Positions 20,400 to 34,071 of a DNA stretch of 64,000 bases are shown here, in pieces. Below the pieces are notes generated by a model. That model ran no database searches and was not told where the DNA came from. It saw only the letters and a list, made by a program, of their open reading frames with translations. Origin of the DNA: Desulfogranum japonicum DSM 18378 (GTDB lineage: Bacteria > Desulfobacterota > Desulfobulbia > Desulfobulbales > Desulfobulbaceae); assembly GCF_000429945.1 (NCBI RefSeq), contig NZ_AUCV01000003.1:124001-188000 (forward strand), read 5' to 3'. Position numbers and translations under genes: made by a program. Within the stretch, counting starts at the first letter, position 1; each line of letters starts with the position of its first letter.

Positions 20400-21305
20400 T
20401 TATCCCCTTAAACTTTCAGGGTTGAAAAGGTTTTTTTCCATGTGTTTGATTTCATCAATACCTGAGATGACAATTTGCGGATCAGGTTCTAAATCCTGGG
20501 ACGGGATTTTATCCTCGTAATCAAGGGATGAAAGTATGACTTTCATACAGTTGATTCGTGCATTCTTTTTCACATCTGAACGGATGATCGTCCATGGCGT
20601 GAGTGTGCGGTTGGACTCATTGAGCATCTGAAATTTTTTCACTGTATATTCATCCCACAGTTTCTGTGCCAGATTATCCACCGGGGAGAGTTTGTACTGT
20701 TTGAGGATATCTGTTTTTCTTGCATCGAAGCGTTTCGCTTGCTCATCTTTTGAGACGGAAAAATAAAATTTAAAAAGTTTTATACCATCTTTGACGAGCA
20801 TTTCTTCAAAGAGCGGCACATCTTTCAGAAACCTTTTGTGCTGTTCGTCCGTGCAGAATCCCATAACCGGTTCCACCATGGCCCTGTTGTACCAGCTGCG
20901 ATCAAACAGGACCAGTTCCCCGCCTGCTGGCAGTTGTGTGACATAGCGTTGAAAATACCACTGGGTCACTTCCTTGTCACTTGGTGCAGCAAGGGCAACT
21001 ACGCGTGCGTTTCTGGGATTGAGAAAGGCGGTTATGCGTTTAATAGTACCGCCTTTTCCGGCAGCGTCACGGCCTTCAAAAATAACCAGGACCCGCATGG
21101 CTTGATTCTTGATATGCCGCTGCAGCTTCATGAGTTCTACCTGCATTTTCCGCAGTTCTTCTTCGTATGCAAGGTGTGCTTTTTTTATCCAGACCGGCAC
21201 CCGTTTATCACTCTCCTCGGCGTCCATATTTCTGAGGGCTGTACCTTCAGCTAGCTTGATATCGTTTGCCGTGCAGTCATTTTTCTTTTTCTTCTTTTCT
21301 CCCAT
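20400..21305 (-). CDS. ppk2: Polyphosphate kinase 2
   Basis: About 301 residues from ATG 21305, which precedes a Lys-rich stretch (GEKKKKKND). The frame continues upstream only into repeat sequence, so that part is discounted, although no strong ribosome binding site is seen. Walker A is GRDAAGKGG (78-86). The PPK2 signatures LFDRSWYNRA and YFSVSKDEQAKRF follow, then a lid region with DNLAQKLWDEYTVKK. PPK2 enzymes use polyphosphate to phosphorylate nucleoside mono- or diphosphates, or run the reverse reaction. A single PPK2 domain of this length is the class I type, which favours diphosphates. A polyphosphate-binding CHAD protein is encoded 4.6 kb further on. Confidence 0.95.
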   Translation of the reverse strand: MGEKKKKKNDCTANDIKLAEGTALRNMDAEESDKRVPVWIKKAHLAYEEELRKMQVELMKLQRHIKNQAMRVLVIFEGRDAAGKGGTIKRITAFLNPRNARVVALAAPSDKEVTQWYFQRYVTQLPAGGELVLFDRSWYNRAMVEPVMGFCTDEQHKRFLKDVPLFEEMLVKDGIKLFKFYFSVSKDEQAKRFDARKTDILKQYKLSPVDNLAQKLWDEYTVKKFQMLNESNRTLTPWTIIRSDVKKNARINCMKVILSSLDYEDKIPSQDLEPDPQIVISGIDEIKHMEKNLFNPESLRG

Positions 21306-21375
21306 ACCGCGACCATAGGTTAAGTTGCAAAGTGAGGGTGATACTTGCCTGTTTGAGGTTGCATACCGTTTTAGA

Positions 21376-21427
21376 GTCGCGGAAAATGCCAACTATCCAA
21401 AATTGGCGAAAGATATCAGATAATGTG
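21376..21427. repeat. Copy D: left half of the 147-bp repeat
   Basis: TCGCGGAAAATGCC is followed by ACTATCCAAAATTGGCGAA and AGATATCAGATAATG, matching the left ends of copies A and C. It shares with copy C the flank TTTTAG-GTCGCGG. The right half is absent. Confidence 0.6.
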
Positions 21428-25899: not shown

Positions 25900-27438
25900 A
25901 TGCTGGAAAAGGTTACAGAGGTATGGAATCTTACTGAGGAATACTCCCTGGAGGCCCTGGTAGAAAAGATCGAAGGCACTTTTTCGCTGCAACAGGACGA
26001 GGAATATAAAAAGCATGTTACCTGGTATGACACCTATGACTGGCGATTGTATGAACAGGGGTATGTTTGCCTGGCAACCGGCTCTTCCTGGTCACTGTAT
26101 AGCAGGGATAGTGGCGTCCTTGTCAAACAGGTCAAAGGTGTTCCGCAGAAGAAAGCTGTTTTTGCAAGCGCCTTTGTGGGTACAGACCTGACCACTATTT
26201 TTACCAAACTTCTTGAGGTTCGAGCACTTCTCCCCCTGCAGACCGCACAATACACCTTGGTGACCCACAGGGTTTTGAATAAGGATGAAAAAACCGTTGT
26301 CCGCTTTATCGTGGAGCAATACGCTTTTGAGGGAACTGAAGAGGTAAGGCAACTGGCCTATCTTATGCCTGTGCGCGGGTACAGGGATGAGTATCAGGCA
26401 GTACGCCAGGCCCTGGCGCCTTTTCCCAGCCAGTCTAGCTGTCCTCTGCTCATAGGGTTGGAGGCAGCGGCTGCCACCACCGGACGACATCCCGGAGATT
26501 ATAGCTCCAAGTTCAATCTGTCGCTTGATCCGGATCAGGTTGCCAGGAGTGCGGTAACATCCATCTACACGCAGCTAGCAGAAACCATGCGGGTAAACGT
26601 TCCCGGTGTGATTGCTGATCTTGATTCTGAGTTTCTGCATGATTTACGGGTTGCCATACGCCGGACCCGTTCCGGCCTGACTTTGATAAAAAAGGTGCTT
26701 CCGGAAGAGGTGGTGGCCCGGTTTAAAGCTGAATTCAAGAAACTTGGCAGCGTTACCGGACCTGTGCGTGACCTGGACGTCTATCTGCTGAGTGAGGAAA
26801 AGTACAGAAAACGGCTCCCTGCCTGTCTGCAGCCAGGATTAACCACCTTTTTTACCACCTTGCAGCAGGAGAGGCAAAGGCAACAGAAATTGCTGGCAAG
26901 AGAATTGAAGAGCGGCAGGGTGGAAAGCTTACTGGTAACCTGGGAAAAGCATTTGCAGCAGGAAGATAAGGAACCTGCGCAGTATGCGGACAATCCGATT
27001 GTCGATGTTGCCAGGAAGGTTATTTATCGCAGATATAAGCGGGTAATGAAGGACGGTCAGGTTATTACCCCAGGTTGTCCGGATGAAAAGCTGCACGAAT
27101 TGCGCATTGAAGGAAAGAAGCTTCGCTATGCCATGGAATTTTTCAGGTCGCTTTTCCCTAAAGAGGAAATTGAAACTGCAATTAAGCAGCTTAAAACATT
27201 ACAGAATAATCTTGGAGATTTTAACGATCTTTCCGTGCAACGGGAAATGCTTCTCCATACCCTGGAGAAACTCAAGCCAGGCTCCAGAAAGAATCAGGAA
27301 ATGGCTGCAGCATTAGGAGGATTAATGGCCTCACTTGCGCATGAACAGCAAATGGTCCGCACAGGCTTTGAGGAAATATTCAGGGCTTTCAGTCACCCTG
27401 ACAATGTTGGTTTGTATAATCGTCTGTTCAAGGGGTAG
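25900..27438 (+). CDS. CHAD-domain protein with degenerate CYTH N-terminus
   Basis: 512 residues with a strong AGGAGGGG ribosome binding site. The N-terminal part (about 1-185) looks like a CYTH/triphosphate-tunnel domain: HVTWYDTYDWRLYEQGYVCL resembles the YFDT-x-D-x-x-L core. The usual ExExK start is not intact, so catalysis is doubtful. Residues 210-505 form a CHAD domain with its two helical repeats of conserved His and basic residues, FLHDLRVAIRRTR (about 246) and LHELRIEGKKLRYAMEF (about 400). CHAD domains bind polyphosphate and target proteins to polyphosphate granules (known family behaviour). It sits 12 bases after argJ and 12 before a ParA-type ATPase, clearly in one operon. Confidence 0.92.
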   Translation: MLEKVTEVWNLTEEYSLEALVEKIEGTFSLQQDEEYKKHVTWYDTYDWRLYEQGYVCLATGSSWSLYSRDSGVLVKQVKGVPQKKAVFASAFVGTDLTTIFTKLLEVRALLPLQTAQYTLVTHRVLNKDEKTVVRFIVEQYAFEGTEEVRQLAYLMPVRGYRDEYQAVRQALAPFPSQSSCPLLIGLEAAAATTGRHPGDYSSKFNLSLDPDQVARSAVTSIYTQLAETMRVNVPGVIADLDSEFLHDLRVAIRRTRSGLTLIKKVLPEEVVARFKAEFKKLGSVTGPVRDLDVYLLSEEKYRKRLPACLQPGLTTFFTTLQQERQRQQKLLARELKSGRVESLLVTWEKHLQQEDKEPAQYADNPIVDVARKVIYRRYKRVMKDGQVITPGCPDEKLHELRIEGKKLRYAMEFFRSLFPKEEIETAIKQLKTLQNNLGDFNDLSVQREMLLHTLEKLKPGSRKNQEMAAALGGLMASLAHEQQMVRTGFEEIFRAFSHPDNVGLYNRLFKG

Positions 27439-27450
27439 AGGAGGCCTGAT

Positions 27451-28191
27451 ATGAGCATAATAGCTGTGTATAATATCAAGGGTGGCGTGGGAAAGACGGC
27501 AACTTCAGTGAATCTTTCCTATCTTTCAGCCCGGGATGGCGCTAGAACCCTGCTTTGTGATCTTGATCCGCAAGGATCAGCCTCCTACTATTTTCGTATT
27601 CGTTCACCTAAAAAATACAATACCAACAAGTTGTTGAAAGGCGGCAAGCATGTGGAGGACAATATTCGCGGCACCGATTATATAGGGCTGGACCTTCTGC
27701 CCGCCGATTTCAGCTACCGTAACATCGATATTGCCCTGGATGACCTCAAAAAAGCTGAGCAGAGACTGGCAAAGGTGTTGCAGCCGCTGCTAGGAGAGTA
27801 TGATCGTATCTTTCTTGATTGTCCGCCCAACCTGACGCTGCTGGCAGAAAATATCTTTTATGCAGCAGACACCATTCTGGTACCGACCATCCCCACAACA
27901 TTGTCTGTATTATCTTTGAAACAGCTGTATAAATTTTTAGACAAAATCGGCCAGAAAAAGAAAAAAGCACTGGTTTTTTTCTCCATGGTGGAACGTAGAA
28001 AAAAAATGCATTCAGACATCATGGATTCCATGGCCCATAACAAAGGTGTTCTTTCCTCATTCATACCCTATCTGGCTGATGTGGAACGTATGGGGATTTA
28101 TCGCCAACCTGTGACAGCGGCTCTCCCTGCTTCCCCTGCTGCCGCGGCATATGCCGCTTTATGGCAGGATATTCAGAACCAACTGGAATAG
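27451..28191 (+). CDS. ParA/Soj-type partition ATPase
   Basis: 246 residues. The deviant Walker A is KGGVGKTATSVNLSYL (about 10-25) with both lysines. Walker A-prime is DLDPQGSAS and Walker B is RIFLDCPPN. Such ATPases dimerise on the nucleoid and position plasmids, chromosomes or protein cargo. No parB, parS-like repeat or replication gene is beside it, so it is unlikely to be the chromosome-partition ParA. Its cargo adaptor could be the upstream CHAD protein, which would place polyphosphate granules (inference). Lys-rich stretches (KIGQKKKKALV and RRKKMHSD) could contact DNA. The next gene, sixA, starts 2 bases after its stop. Confidence 0.93.
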   Translation: MSIIAVYNIKGGVGKTATSVNLSYLSARDGARTLLCDLDPQGSASYYFRIRSPKKYNTNKLLKGGKHVEDNIRGTDYIGLDLLPADFSYRNIDIALDDLKKAEQRLAKVLQPLLGEYDRIFLDCPPNLTLLAENIFYAADTILVPTIPTTLSVLSLKQLYKFLDKIGQKKKKALVFFSMVERRKKMHSDIMDSMAHNKGVLSSFIPYLADVERMGIYRQPVTAALPASPAAAAYAALWQDIQNQLE

Positions 28192-28193
28192 CT

Positions 28194-28697
28194 ATGAAAA
28201 TTGTTACCCTGTGTCGACATGCCAAATCCAGCTGGAAACATCCAGAACTGAGTGATTTTGACCGTCCTCTTAACAAACGCGGCGAAAGAAATGCCCCTGT
28301 TATGGCAGCAAGATTGAAAGAACACTCGGTGCTGCCAGATGTCGTCATATCCAGCCCAGCTGCACGTGCACGGGCAACGGTTCTTGCAATGGCTGAAGCT
28401 ACAGGGTTTCCCCAAAAGGATATTATCTATGAGCCCAGGGTGTATGCGGCTTCACCTGGAACACTGTTTGCAATCATTCGTGCTCTGGAGGATTCGTATG
28501 CGTCCCTGTTATTGGTCGGCCACAATCCCGAGTTCACGGTATTGGCCAACGCGCTTGGTGGACTGCACCTTGCCAATATACCCACCTGTGGTATCGTAAG
28601 TTTACGCTTCCCCGTACACAAATGGGAAGAGATTCACAGCGGCACCGGCTCGCTGCAGTTTTTTGATTATCCCAAGAACCCGCAGTATTTGACCTGA
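28194..28697 (+). CDS. sixA: SixA-type phosphohistidine phosphatase
   Basis: 167 residues from ATG 28194. The histidine-phosphatase signature is CRHAKSSW with catalytic His9. The second-half features are ISSPAARARATV and VGHNPEF, whose His is the second active-site His. This short RHAKSSW branch (SixA) removes phosphate from phosphohistidine in phosphorelay or PTS proteins. It follows the ParA gene by 2 bases and precedes the ClC gene by 4, so all are translated from one message. SixA and CHAD genes are, as I recall, neighbours in other bacteria too. Confidence 0.93.
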   Translation: MKIVTLCRHAKSSWKHPELSDFDRPLNKRGERNAPVMAARLKEHSVLPDVVISSPAARARATVLAMAEATGFPQKDIIYEPRVYAASPGTLFAIIRALEDSYASLLLVGHNPEFTVLANALGGLHLANIPTCGIVSLRFPVHKWEEIHSGTGSLQFFDYPKNPQYLT

Positions 28698-28701
28698 TTG
28701 T

Positions 28702-30792
28702 ATGATAAAAAAAAGAAATCCTTTCGGGCTTTTTCTTGATCGGCTCTCTCCTCCTCAGGGCCTCTTGCTGTTGCTGTTGTCCATTGCTGTTGGTGTGGTG
28801 ACAGGTCTTGCCGCTGTTTTTTTTATCCATCTGATCAGTCTCATAGAGCGGGGACTCTATGCACTGTTTACCCTGCTTTCTCCCTATATGGGAATATGGA
28901 CCTATCTGGTGATACCTGTTGCCGGGGCTCTCTTAAGTGGACCCCTTATAGCGTTTTTTGCCAGAGAGGCCAAGGGGCACGGTATCCCGGAAGTGATGCA
29001 GGCGCTAGTTCTCAAGGGAGGGCGAATACGCCCCAGGGTTGCCCTTGCAAAAATTGTCGCTTCAGCTCTCTGCATCGGGTCTGGTGGGTCGGCTGGGCGC
29101 GAGGGCCCTATTGTCCAGGTTGGTTCTGCTTTTGGTTCGGTAACCGGTCAGCTCCTGCACCTCAGCGACGAACGCATTAAAAATCTTGTTTCATGTGGCG
29201 CTGCAGCGGGTATTGCGGCAACTTTTAACGCTCCCATTGCCGGTGTTGCTTTTGCCATTGAAGTGTTGATGAGTGAGTTACAGGTGAGGCTGTTCGGCAA
29301 TGTCGTCATTGCAGCCGTTTCCGCCTCCATTGTAAGTCAGGTATTTTTAGGCGATAAACCGGCTTTTTTGGTTCCCGCCTACACCATGTCTTCACCAATG
29401 GAGATTTTACTTTTTCTTTTTTTAGGGCTTGTGGCAGCCTTGGTGGGGATTTTTTTTATTCGGGTTCTTGATCTTTCCGAACGGGTCTTTGATCAGTGGA
29501 AGTTTCCCCTTGCCCTGAAACCTGCAGTAGGTGCCATCTGTCTGGGCCTCCTGGGAATGATGTATGTTTCGTTCAGTGGGACTTCCCTCTCCAGCCTTAT
29601 GGGGTTTGACGCTCAACAGCTGATAGAGCACAAACCGCATATGTACGGGCCCGGATTTGAATTTATAGAAAAAGCATTGCGTGGTGACACGAGTTTCTTT
29701 CTTTTTTTGCTCCTTGTCGTATTGAAACCGCTGGCAACCTCTTTTACATTGGGATCTGGAAATTCAGGTGGTGTTTTTGCCCCTTCGCTTTTTACAGGTG
29801 CCGTATTGGGCGGTGCTCTTGGAACAGCCTTTGAAATAGTTTTACCAGGGGGAACAAGCCCACCAGGTGCATATGCTCTGGTCGGAATGGCTGCGGTGTT
29901 TGCAGCTTGTGCCCATGCGCCGCTTACCGCCATACTCATAGTCTTTGAAATGAGTAATGATTATTCGCTTATCCTGCCGCTTATGGTGGCATCTGTCACG
30001 GCATCCTATGCTTCGCTGTATTTTTATTCCGAGTCCATGTATACAGCCAAGCTGACCCGAAGAGGTATCAGATTTTCCCAGGGAAGAGATCTGGATATCA
30101 TGCAGGGGGTAATGGTACGTGAAGTTATGAACCATGAGCCTGAGGTGGTGAAAAGCAGTGATCCCCTTGCTTTATTGTATAGAAAATTTCAGGAAACTAC
30201 CTACCTGGGGTTTCCCGTTGTTGACGATAAGGGAGAACTCTGGGGGATCGTTACCCTGCAGGATCTGGAACGTGTGCTCAGCAGTGGAGAGCAAACTATA
30301 AGAGAACTGAAGGTTGAAGATGTGGCTGTGGTCAATCCTCTCACCGTGTATGCAGACGAACCCATCTGGACAGCTATTCAAAAAATGGCGCCTCGGGATC
30401 TTGCCAGGCTACCTGTTGTCAGCCGTCGTAACGACCGTGAACTCATTGGTTTGATAAGCAGAAGCAATATATTGCGTGCCTATGATGTTGCCATTGTTCG
30501 CAAACAGAGAGGGCAACTGCTTGGCGACAAGATGACTCTTCGTAAAAAGAGTGGTAATACCTTTTTTGAGGTCCGGTTGCAACCAGGCAATGTTGCTGTG
30601 GGAATGTCTCTTAAAGAATTACAGTTATCAGAAGGTGCGAATGTGGTTGCCGTTGAACGTAATGGGGTTTCCCATATACCCAGAGGAAACCTGGTGTTCA
30701 TGGCAGGAGATATTGTAACTCTTTTTGCAGAGAAAAACGCTATGGATGCAGCAATGCAGCAATTGACCAGTGGCAAACGTGCAGAGAGATGA
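28702..30792 (+). CDS. ClC chloride channel/antiporter with CBS pair and TrkA-C domain
   Basis: 696 residues. The ClC membrane domain (about 20-435) has the selectivity motifs KGHGIPEVMQA, GSGGSAGREGPIVQ with the gating Glu, and GSGNSGGVFAPSLF. In the first motif His replaces the usual Ser of GSGIPE. It is followed by two CBS modules (about 470-580), which bind nucleotides, and a C-terminal RCK_C/TrkA-C domain (about 605-690). The gating Glu suggests a Cl-/H+ antiporter or fluoride/nitrate-type exchanger rather than an open channel. The combination of CBS and TrkA-C points to ligand control. It starts 4 bases after sixA and overlaps the next small gene by 4 bases. Confidence 0.93.
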   Translation: MIKKRNPFGLFLDRLSPPQGLLLLLLSIAVGVVTGLAAVFFIHLISLIERGLYALFTLLSPYMGIWTYLVIPVAGALLSGPLIAFFAREAKGHGIPEVMQALVLKGGRIRPRVALAKIVASALCIGSGGSAGREGPIVQVGSAFGSVTGQLLHLSDERIKNLVSCGAAAGIAATFNAPIAGVAFAIEVLMSELQVRLFGNVVIAAVSASIVSQVFLGDKPAFLVPAYTMSSPMEILLFLFLGLVAALVGIFFIRVLDLSERVFDQWKFPLALKPAVGAICLGLLGMMYVSFSGTSLSSLMGFDAQQLIEHKPHMYGPGFEFIEKALRGDTSFFLFLLLVVLKPLATSFTLGSGNSGGVFAPSLFTGAVLGGALGTAFEIVLPGGTSPPGAYALVGMAAVFAACAHAPLTAILIVFEMSNDYSLILPLMVASVTASYASLYFYSESMYTAKLTRRGIRFSQGRDLDIMQGVMVREVMNHEPEVVKSSDPLALLYRKFQETTYLGFPVVDDKGELWGIVTLQDLERVLSSGEQTIRELKVEDVAVVNPLTVYADEPIWTAIQKMAPRDLARLPVVSRRNDRELIGLISRSNILRAYDVAIVRKQRGQLLGDKMTLRKKSGNTFFEVRLQPGNVAVGMSLKELQLSEGANVVAVERNGVSHIPRGNLVFMAGDIVTLFAEKNAMDAAMQQLTSGKRAER

Positions 30793-32307: not shown

Positions 32308-34071
32308 ATGACATTCAAGTACATGATGACATTGCTTGTATCAGCATTGTGTTTAACGCTGAGTGTTGCTCCTGTGGCTGGTGGGTGCCTTGAAGGGGAT
32401 TGCAGAAATGGTCTGGGAAAGTATCGCAGCCCGGATGGTCGTCTGTACGAAGGTGAATTCAAGCATGGATATCTGTGGGGACAGGGGACATTGCATTTTC
32501 CCGATAACAGCTGGTATAACGGTGAATTTGTCCAGGGGCGTTATCATGGCCAGGGAGAACTGGCATATAGTGACGGACGTCGTTACGTGGGTACTTTCAA
32601 GGACGGTGTCATTAATGGAAGGGGATCTTTGACCGAGCCCAATGGTCAGCAGTATATAGGAGAGTTTTCTCTGGGCAGGTTTAATGGTACAGGTACACTG
32701 TTTTACCCGGATGGACGTGAATTTACTGGGGATTTTCGCAATAATGTCGTTCATGGAACAGGCCGGCTAATGTATGCGGATGGTTCGACCTTTGAAGGCT
32801 GGTTCAAGGATGGAAAACCCAACGGAGAGGGTGTACGACGATACCTGGATGGAAGCCGATATACCGGAAAGTATGTGGATCAGTACCGGCAAGGCAAAGG
32901 CACATTGCAACAGCTTGATGGCACCATTTATGAAGGTGAATTCGACCAAGATCAGTACCATGGTAAGGGAAAACTAACGGCAGTCAATGGGGATATTTAT
33001 ACAGGGGCCTTTGAACATGGTGAGATGACTGGCCAAGGTACGATGCAATGGAAGGACGGAAGAGTGTACACCGGGAGTTTTGTCAAAGGTGTTCCCCAAG
33101 GAAAGGGAATGATGGAATATCCCGATAAAAGCCGCTATGAAGGAGATTGGGTCGCAGGAAAGCGTGACGGAAAAGGCATTTTACTATATGCAGACGGCAG
33201 TCGGTACGAGGGCGAGTTTGCAAAGGGAATACTCCACGGCAAAGGCTTGTTGAAAAAGAAAGATGGAACTTCTTTTTCAGGGCAATTTAAGCACGGAGCA
33301 CCTGTTGTTCCTCCTGAAAAAGAACAGGTGGCTTCAGTAAACAACAAAAAACAGCAGAATGTCCATGAAAAACCAGGTGATGATAAAGGGGAACAGGTCG
33401 GTGGAATATTGATCACCGGCCGTGTTCCAGAGAACAGTAAGACTGAGAAGGGTGAATATCTCATTGGTGATATCCTCTATAAAGATCCCCAGCAGCATGA
33501 ACGTTTTACAGGGAGATCATCAGTAACTTTTCACGATAACTCAACCTATGATGGTGATTTCGTTGATGGCCGAATGGAAGGTCAGGGTGAAATACAGTGG
33601 AGCAATGGAGATCACTATAAAGGAGCTTTTGAAAAAGGCAAACTTCACGGCAAAGGCAAATATGTGTTTGCTGATGGTCGTGTGTATACCGGGGAGTTTC
33701 GGCGAGGGGGGCGTGAAGGGCAGGGGATTTTACAATACCCTGATGGCTCATCGTATAAAGGACATTTTGTAAATAATCAGTTTTCAGGGCATGGAAGCTA
33801 TGTTTTTCCAGACACAAGCCGATATGAAGGAGATTTTTACAAAGGGTATTTTCAGGGAAGCGGTGAACTCCAATATGCCGATGGGAAACAGTATACCGGC
33901 GACTTTGAGAAAGATCTTCCTCACGGGTACGGCACACTTCTTTCTCCTGATGGAAGTGAGTATACAGGAAATTTTAAACATGGTCGTCGCCATGGTTCAG
34001 GGCAAATCGTGTTTGCCGATGGCAGAATGATTAAAGGTAAGTTTAAAGATGATAAGTTTGTGGTGCAATAA
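32308..34071 (+). CDS. Exported MORN-repeat protein
   Basis: 587 residues. A Sec signal peptide (about 1-24) is followed by MORN repeats of 23 residues, consensus YEGEF-x-x-G-x-x-H-GKG-x-L-x-Y-x-DG. I count about 12 full repeats in block 1 (residues 37-330). A charged, Lys/Glu-rich linker of roughly 75 residues follows, then about seven more full repeats in block 2 (about 415-580), plus partial repeats at both ends. The linker begins after HGAPVVPPEKEQ. The fold is an elongated beta-sheet sheath that binds proteins or lipids. With a signal peptide it should act in the periplasm or outside. It is co-transcribed with avtA; why is unclear. Confidence 0.9.
   Translation: MTFKYMMTLLVSALCLTLSVAPVAGGCLEGDCRNGLGKYRSPDGRLYEGEFKHGYLWGQGTLHFPDNSWYNGEFVQGRYHGQGELAYSDGRRYVGTFKDGVINGRGSLTEPNGQQYIGEFSLGRFNGTGTLFYPDGREFTGDFRNNVVHGTGRLMYADGSTFEGWFKDGKPNGEGVRRYLDGSRYTGKYVDQYRQGKGTLQQLDGTIYEGEFDQDQYHGKGKLTAVNGDIYTGAFEHGEMTGQGTMQWKDGRVYTGSFVKGVPQGKGMMEYPDKSRYEGDWVAGKRDGKGILLYADGSRYEGEFAKGILHGKGLLKKKDGTSFSGQFKHGAPVVPPEKEQVASVNNKKQQNVHEKPGDDKGEQVGGILITGRVPENSKTEKGEYLIGDILYKDPQQHERFTGRSSVTFHDNSTYDGDFVDGRMEGQGEIQWSNGDHYKGAFEKGKLHGKGKYVFADGRVYTGEFRRGGREGQGILQYPDGSSYKGHFVNNQFSGHGSYVFPDTSRYEGDFYKGYFQGSGELQYADGKQYTGDFEKDLPHGYGTLLSPDGSEYTGNFKHGRRHGSGQIVFADGRMIKGKFKDDKFVVQ

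Follow-up and report, generated by a model that had tools for sequence, protein, structure and literature searches.

A conserved ParA-CHAD gene pair as a candidate system for positioning polyphosphate granules

Few bacterial storage bodies are as widespread as polyphosphate (polyP) granules, whose placement and inheritance are largely unexplained. In Desulfogranum japonicum DSM 18378, a gene for a ParA-type ATPase lies directly behind one for a CHAD protein, which raises the question of whether the two might act together on such granules. We addressed it within a stretch of 64,000 nucleotides (the window, to which all coordinates refer unless a locus is named) and by comparison with related and more distant genomes.

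The gene run and its two central proteins

The gene for the CHAD protein, the proposed polyP-granule adaptor (25900..27438, + strand; 512 amino acids; PF05235, 4.6e-61), begins 12 nt after the end of argJ and is followed in the same direction by genes encoding an orphan ParA ATPase (27451..28191, +; 246 amino acids; AAA_31, 1e-39), an accessory SixA-like putative phosphohistidine phosphatase (28194..28697, +; His_Phos_1, 3.5e-10) and a ClC-type chloride channel/antiporter with CBS and TrkA_C domains (28702..30792, +; Voltage_CLC, 1.2e-103). Successive gaps between these five ORFs measure 12, 12, 2 and 4 nt, the last three of which confirm the tight CHAD-ParA-SixA-ClC run of the original prediction. 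A PPK2-type polyphosphate kinase, expected about 5 kb away, was likewise found: a kinase-like ORF on the other strand (20400..21392, -), 4.5 kb before CHAD, which we named from its own sequence and whose relatives in neighboring genomes match PF03976. A small McdB-like gene between CHAD and ParA was ruled out, since the gaps on either side of ParA (12 and 2 nt) leave no room for one. Further downstream, after a gene for valine-pyruvate transaminase, the window encodes a 587-amino-acid protein consisting largely of MORN repeats (32308-34071; PF02493, 1.1e-91); a similar pair follows ParA in locus L122.

The structure model of the CHAD protein (mean pLDDT, 95.2) finds its best match in the Chlorobium tepidum CHAD protein (C. 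tepidum; 6qv7/6qva; Z about 37). Its first 195 residues align with triphosphate tunnel metalloenzymes (TTM) at a Z of about 12 (VIA-align), indicating a triphosphate-tunnel (CYTH/TTM) fold, and the catalytic ExExK motif is absent from this N-terminal domain; of 60 relatives, two have an ExExK-like match, probably by chance. A Pfam search of the protein returned no CYTH match either. The modeled N-terminal domain (residues 1-198; 25900..26493, +) is best described as a pseudo-TTM, a triphosphate-tunnel fold minus its catalytic motif. The same architecture, a pseudo-TTM followed by a long CHAD domain (in the window, residues 201-512; 26500..27435, +), is seen in ParA-linked CHAD proteins generally, which measure about 510 to 530 amino acids.

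Within the CHAD domain, a putative polyP site is formed by H247, R250, R254, R290, R409 and Y410. These are the equivalents of C. tepidum H253, R256, R260, R296, R418 and Y419, mutation of which weakens polyP binding in a protein that was crystallized with polyP as a fragment covering residues 208-522 of a longer chain (PMC6537752). All six contact residues checked were invariant in 60 of 60 relatives, and a Chlorobium relative with ParA next door matches the C. tepidum protein at 1.6e-101. Judged by sequence, then, the CHAD protein of the window belongs to the subfamily that includes the polyP-crystallized C. tepidum protein, and its predicted binding of polyP is strongly supported through that orthologue. 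Localization to polyP granules in vivo is known for other CHAD proteins only. Many partners of ParA proteins act through a disordered basic tail; the CHAD model is folded nearly from end to end and has no such tail.

ParA carries an invariant deviant Walker A motif (KGGVGKT, residues 10-16), and K10 and K15 of this motif, including the signature lysine, as well as D123 of Walker B, are invariant among relatives. Its model (pLDDT, 93.7) has as nearest folds by E-value Soj/ParA and then McdA, with BcsQ and FleN also among the structural neighbors; sequence identity to Soj/ParA proteins of ParABS systems is about 25 to 29%. By its motifs and predicted fold, this is a complete ParA-type ATPase. 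In other ParAs, two arginines are important for binding DNA (PMC7229837); the first corresponds to conserved R183 here and the second position is occupied by D210. Since R183 is conserved and basic residues nearby (K184 and R218) are as well, nucleoid binding appears plausible despite the aspartate at the second position.

Elsewhere in the genome, we found a single PPK1 gene and no second CHAD gene; a conventional parA-parB pair is encoded on a different contig. ParB thus adjoins a different ParA, no cognate partner of that type was found for the CHAD-linked one, and a search of the window for the canonical parS consensus, allowing up to 3 mismatches, gave no match. That no parB or parS would lie near this ParA had been anticipated correctly, and the existence of a separate ParB for the conventional ParA speaks in favor of a positioning role for the CHAD-linked one.

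Conservation of the pair and its companions

Among 57 related genomes, orthologues of the CHAD-linked ParA are 41 to 79% identical and stand well apart from chromosomal ParA (about 30%). Leaving out the window's own locus, CHAD lies immediately upstream in 27 of 29 orthologue loci of the family and order. L038, which is divided between two contigs, has its other half beside CHAD and brings the count to 28/29, with L039 (a ParA orthologue without CHAD) as the sole exception. A wide scan with a ParA profile, from which the best 80 loci were kept, gave a similar picture, with CHAD directly upstream in 72, often overlapping ParA (median gap, -2.5 nt, with many ATGA overlaps). As the profile was built from CHAD-linked genes, 72/80 describes one ParA subfamily rather than ParAs generally. 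The other loci comprise one with inverted order, CHAD being downstream (L107), five whose genomes keep a long CHAD away from ParA, one cut short by the end of its contig (L046) and one for which CHAD was looked for and not found (L114). The conserved neighborhood is therefore borne out at both scales, and the CHAD-ParA core of the proposed operon stands.

The 80 loci come from about 14 phyla, named from record titles and in many cases represented by metagenome-assembled genomes: Desulfobacterota, Pseudomonadota, Chlorobi/Bacteroidota, KSB1, Gemmatimonadota, Latescibacterota, Dadabacteria, Verrucomicrobiota, Acidobacteriota, Chloroflexota, Calditrichota, Binatota, Actinomycetota and Planctomycetota; a contig whose bin was labeled archaeal is also among them. 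Isolates are represented by, among others, Desulfopila aestuarii, Sedimenticola selenatireducens, Desulfobacter latus and Cerasicoccus frondis. No fusion of the two genes was found. Across 94 linked pairs, CHAD and ParA distances are correlated in a mirror-tree comparison (Mantel r, 0.73; 0 of 2000 permutations), to which we attach little weight, as shared ancestry alone could yield such a correlation.

Genes related to polyP and phosphate recur around the pair. Among the best 80 loci, SixA is a neighbor in 19, PPK1 in 12, PPK2 (PF03976) in 9, Ppx and CYTH in 8 each, and PhoU and PstS-like proteins in 3 each, at least one of these being present in 35; on assumed copy numbers, chance would give roughly 0.2 to 0.6 each for SixA, PPK1, PPK2 and Ppx. 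In Paracoccus marcusii, pstA-pstB-phoU-phoB lies ahead of the pair, and CYTH, NUDIX and CYTH genes come after it. The SixA-like gene of the window fits less well with its original billing: it is a His_Phos_1 member, as predicted, and with 49.6 bits against a cutoff of 74.5 for NCBIfam TIGR00249 it falls below the SixA equivalog level, so that SixA-like is the safer label. SixA is common beside ParA-CHAD in the window's own family, and its presence in only 19 of the 80 wider loci led us to reject it as a core part. ClC, kept beside ParA only near that family, was rejected as a part of the system altogether. Both are lineage-level companions.

Where the linkage loosens

Of 148 Desulfobacterota genomes surveyed, 7 have ParA, 15 have CHAD and 6 have the two side by side (Fisher P = 2.5e-6, a value that ignores shared ancestry); the neighbor count called for originally is thus 6 of 7 ParA genomes. 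Of the CHAD proteins, 6 of 7 long ones are accompanied by ParA, as against 0 of 8 short ones. In 150 Pseudomonadota genomes, matches to the ParA profile (46 genomes) and CHAD (81 genomes) coincide in 38 (P = 2.6e-6, again ignoring shared ancestry), and the two are adjacent in only 4 of the 46 genomes with a ParA relative, from which it is clear that the linkage weakens outside the core subfamily. In the ParA tree, whose deep support is modest, unlinked copies from beta- and gammaproteobacteria nest within CHAD-linked clades, which suggests that the linkage was lost repeatedly there. No neighbor is common to all of these unlinked copies. Either gene may also occur alone, with CHAD lacking ParA in G012, G014 and G032 and ParA lacking CHAD in G046, G088 and L114.

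CHADs adjacent to ParA in Pseudomonadota match the pseudo-TTM profile, which none of 17 long CHADs from Pseudomonadota genomes without this ParA clearly does; 14 of those 17 have ExExK, as in YgiF. A further group of long homologues (L191, L192, L194, L195 and similar genomes) combines a pseudo-TTM with a degenerate, CHAD-like domain that has apparently lost the polyP residues, and this form co-occurs with an unlinked ParA relative in 14 of 15 Pseudomonadota genomes.

Some relatives of ParA have other neighbors. One on plasmid pMAQU02 of Marinobacter nauticus VT8 (L141:6001-6747; 40% identical), with no CHAD, adjoins a PHB-type block (phbB, acetyl-CoA hydrolase/transferase and pyruvate kinase) and is possibly a ParA for PHB granules. 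A distant one (L124:5509-6336; 41%) is flanked by two similar short, amphi-Trp-domain-like genes in a cluster that includes an ATP-grasp-like gene. In genome G088, the position immediately ahead of the ParA relative (L120:7391-8098) is taken not by CHAD but by a gene for a coiled-coil protein, which could be an alternative adaptor.

Proposed function and known systems

Deep conservation of the pair, an intact polyP site, a complete ATPase and the recurrence of polyP enzyme genes nearby together make it almost certain that ParA and CHAD form a functional unit of some kind. What this unit does is a separate matter. By analogy with McdAB, in which a cargo adaptor, a nucleoid ATPase and hydrolysis triggered at the cargo are combined, we favor, at a probability of roughly 60%, a role in positioning and partitioning polyP granules, with CHAD marking the granule and stimulating nucleoid-bound ParA. 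CHAD would coat the granule and serve as adaptor, and ATP-bound ParA dimers would sit on the nucleoid. Granule-bound CHAD would then trigger ATP hydrolysis and local release of ParA, probably through the pseudo-TTM domain, given that the adaptor is folded nearly throughout. Granules following the resulting ParA gradient would be kept apart rather than fuse and, like carboxysomes under McdA/McdB, would be split between daughters at division. For SixA, a lineage-specific addition, the phosphohistidine intermediate of PPK1 is a possible target. Of the original idea of a CHAD adaptor with an orphan ParA, the neighborhood and the missing ParB/parS were thus observed, and the positioning itself we infer. 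Against positioning count the lack of a disordered basic tail on CHAD, the conservation of only one of the two DNA-binding arginines, the genomes with CHAD or ParA alone and the scarcity of adjacent pairs in Pseudomonadota.

In the chief rival explanation, ParA would serve as a regulatory switch of the MinD/BcsQ type and, with CHAD, control polyP synthesis or granule assembly while the granules are not moved. BcsQ and FleN, ParA-fold proteins that regulate rather than position, are structural neighbors of this ParA, the pair is found with pst-phoU-phoB, PPK1 and Ppx genes, and the DNA-binding surface is conserved only in part; yet the closest folds by E-value are the nucleoid-bound partition ATPases Soj/ParA, then McdA, and three basic residues, R183, K184 and R218, are conserved. 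We consider such a switch unlikely. Still less probable, in our estimation, is that the pair serves another cargo, polyP being a tuning ligand. The degenerate two-domain CHADs accompanying beta- and gammaproteobacterial ParA relatives would fit such a role, as would the relatives beside coiled-coil, amphi-Trp-like or PHB-type genes, whereas the core subfamily to which the window belongs has an invariant polyP site and polyP enzymes as neighbors.

The remaining two explanations strike us as highly improbable. ParA genes are common, and argJ and ClC share the run without an evident polyP link, as might be expected if ParA and CHAD were adjacent by chance or operon hitchhiking and had no common function; mere coincidence is difficult to reconcile with adjacency in about 14 phyla amid varying flanking genes, with the inverted order in L107 and with retention of both genes after unlinking. 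An orphan remnant of a plasmid-type ParABS system would account for the family membership of ParA and for the plasmid location of some Paracoccus copies, but both Paracoccus plasmid copies examined carry CHAD as well, the window has no canonical parS and the ParB of the genome is paired with a different ParA.

We therefore regard ParA-CHAD as the best candidate so far for a machine that spaces and shares out polyP granules at the expense of ATP. The bolder proposal that it is the first ATP-driven positioner of these granules, ancient and widespread, with descendants that have a degenerate CHAD or other partners re-aimed at other storage bodies, is speculative, and we would hold it only tentatively. 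Either way, the conserved pair can be tested as one and the same gene pair in a wide range of phyla, and through it the well-studied CHAD domain gains a likely partner and a likely role in the cell.

Among known systems, McdA/McdB is the nearest in principle, likewise combining a nucleoid ParA-type ATPase with a cargo adaptor, and the folds nearest to our ParA include McdA structures. McdB is a disordered adaptor, whereas the adaptor proposed here, a pseudo-TTM joined to CHAD, is predicted to be folded and would have the polyP granule as its cargo; no McdB-type protein is encoded beside ParA in the window, its neighbors being CHAD and the SixA-like gene. ParABS (Soj/Spo0J) supplies the closest ParA folds and sequences, from which the ParA of the window differs in having neither ParB nor parS. 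YgiF-type CYTH-CHAD enzymes likewise have a TTM domain followed by CHAD but keep ExExK and occur without a CHAD-linked ParA. CHAD phosins, including the C. tepidum protein (6qva), belong to the same CHAD subfamily with its invariant polyP site, and their ParA partner has so far gone without interpretation in the literature examined. AlgP of Pseudomonas aeruginosa also spaces polyP granules (PMC9239181) but is a histone H1-like tether with no ATPase known in its system; a 2025 review lists it as the sole polyP-positioning factor and treats dependence on ATP or energy as an open question (PMC13052382). A ParA for polyP granules was not described in the literature searched, which excluded bioRxiv and most subscription journals. 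The gene pair itself is familiar from the folD-ppk-parA-CHAD cluster of Acidithiobacillus, where the parA-CHAD-ppk adjacency was noted in 2019 and 2024 and not read as positioning, ParA being named only as a partition protein and copper resistance or cAMP signaling being discussed (PMC6416229, PMC10892726). The original claim that no system of this composition had been described accordingly gives way as regards the adjacency and, within the literature searched, holds for its interpretation, the reading of ParA-CHAD as a candidate system for positioning polyP granules.
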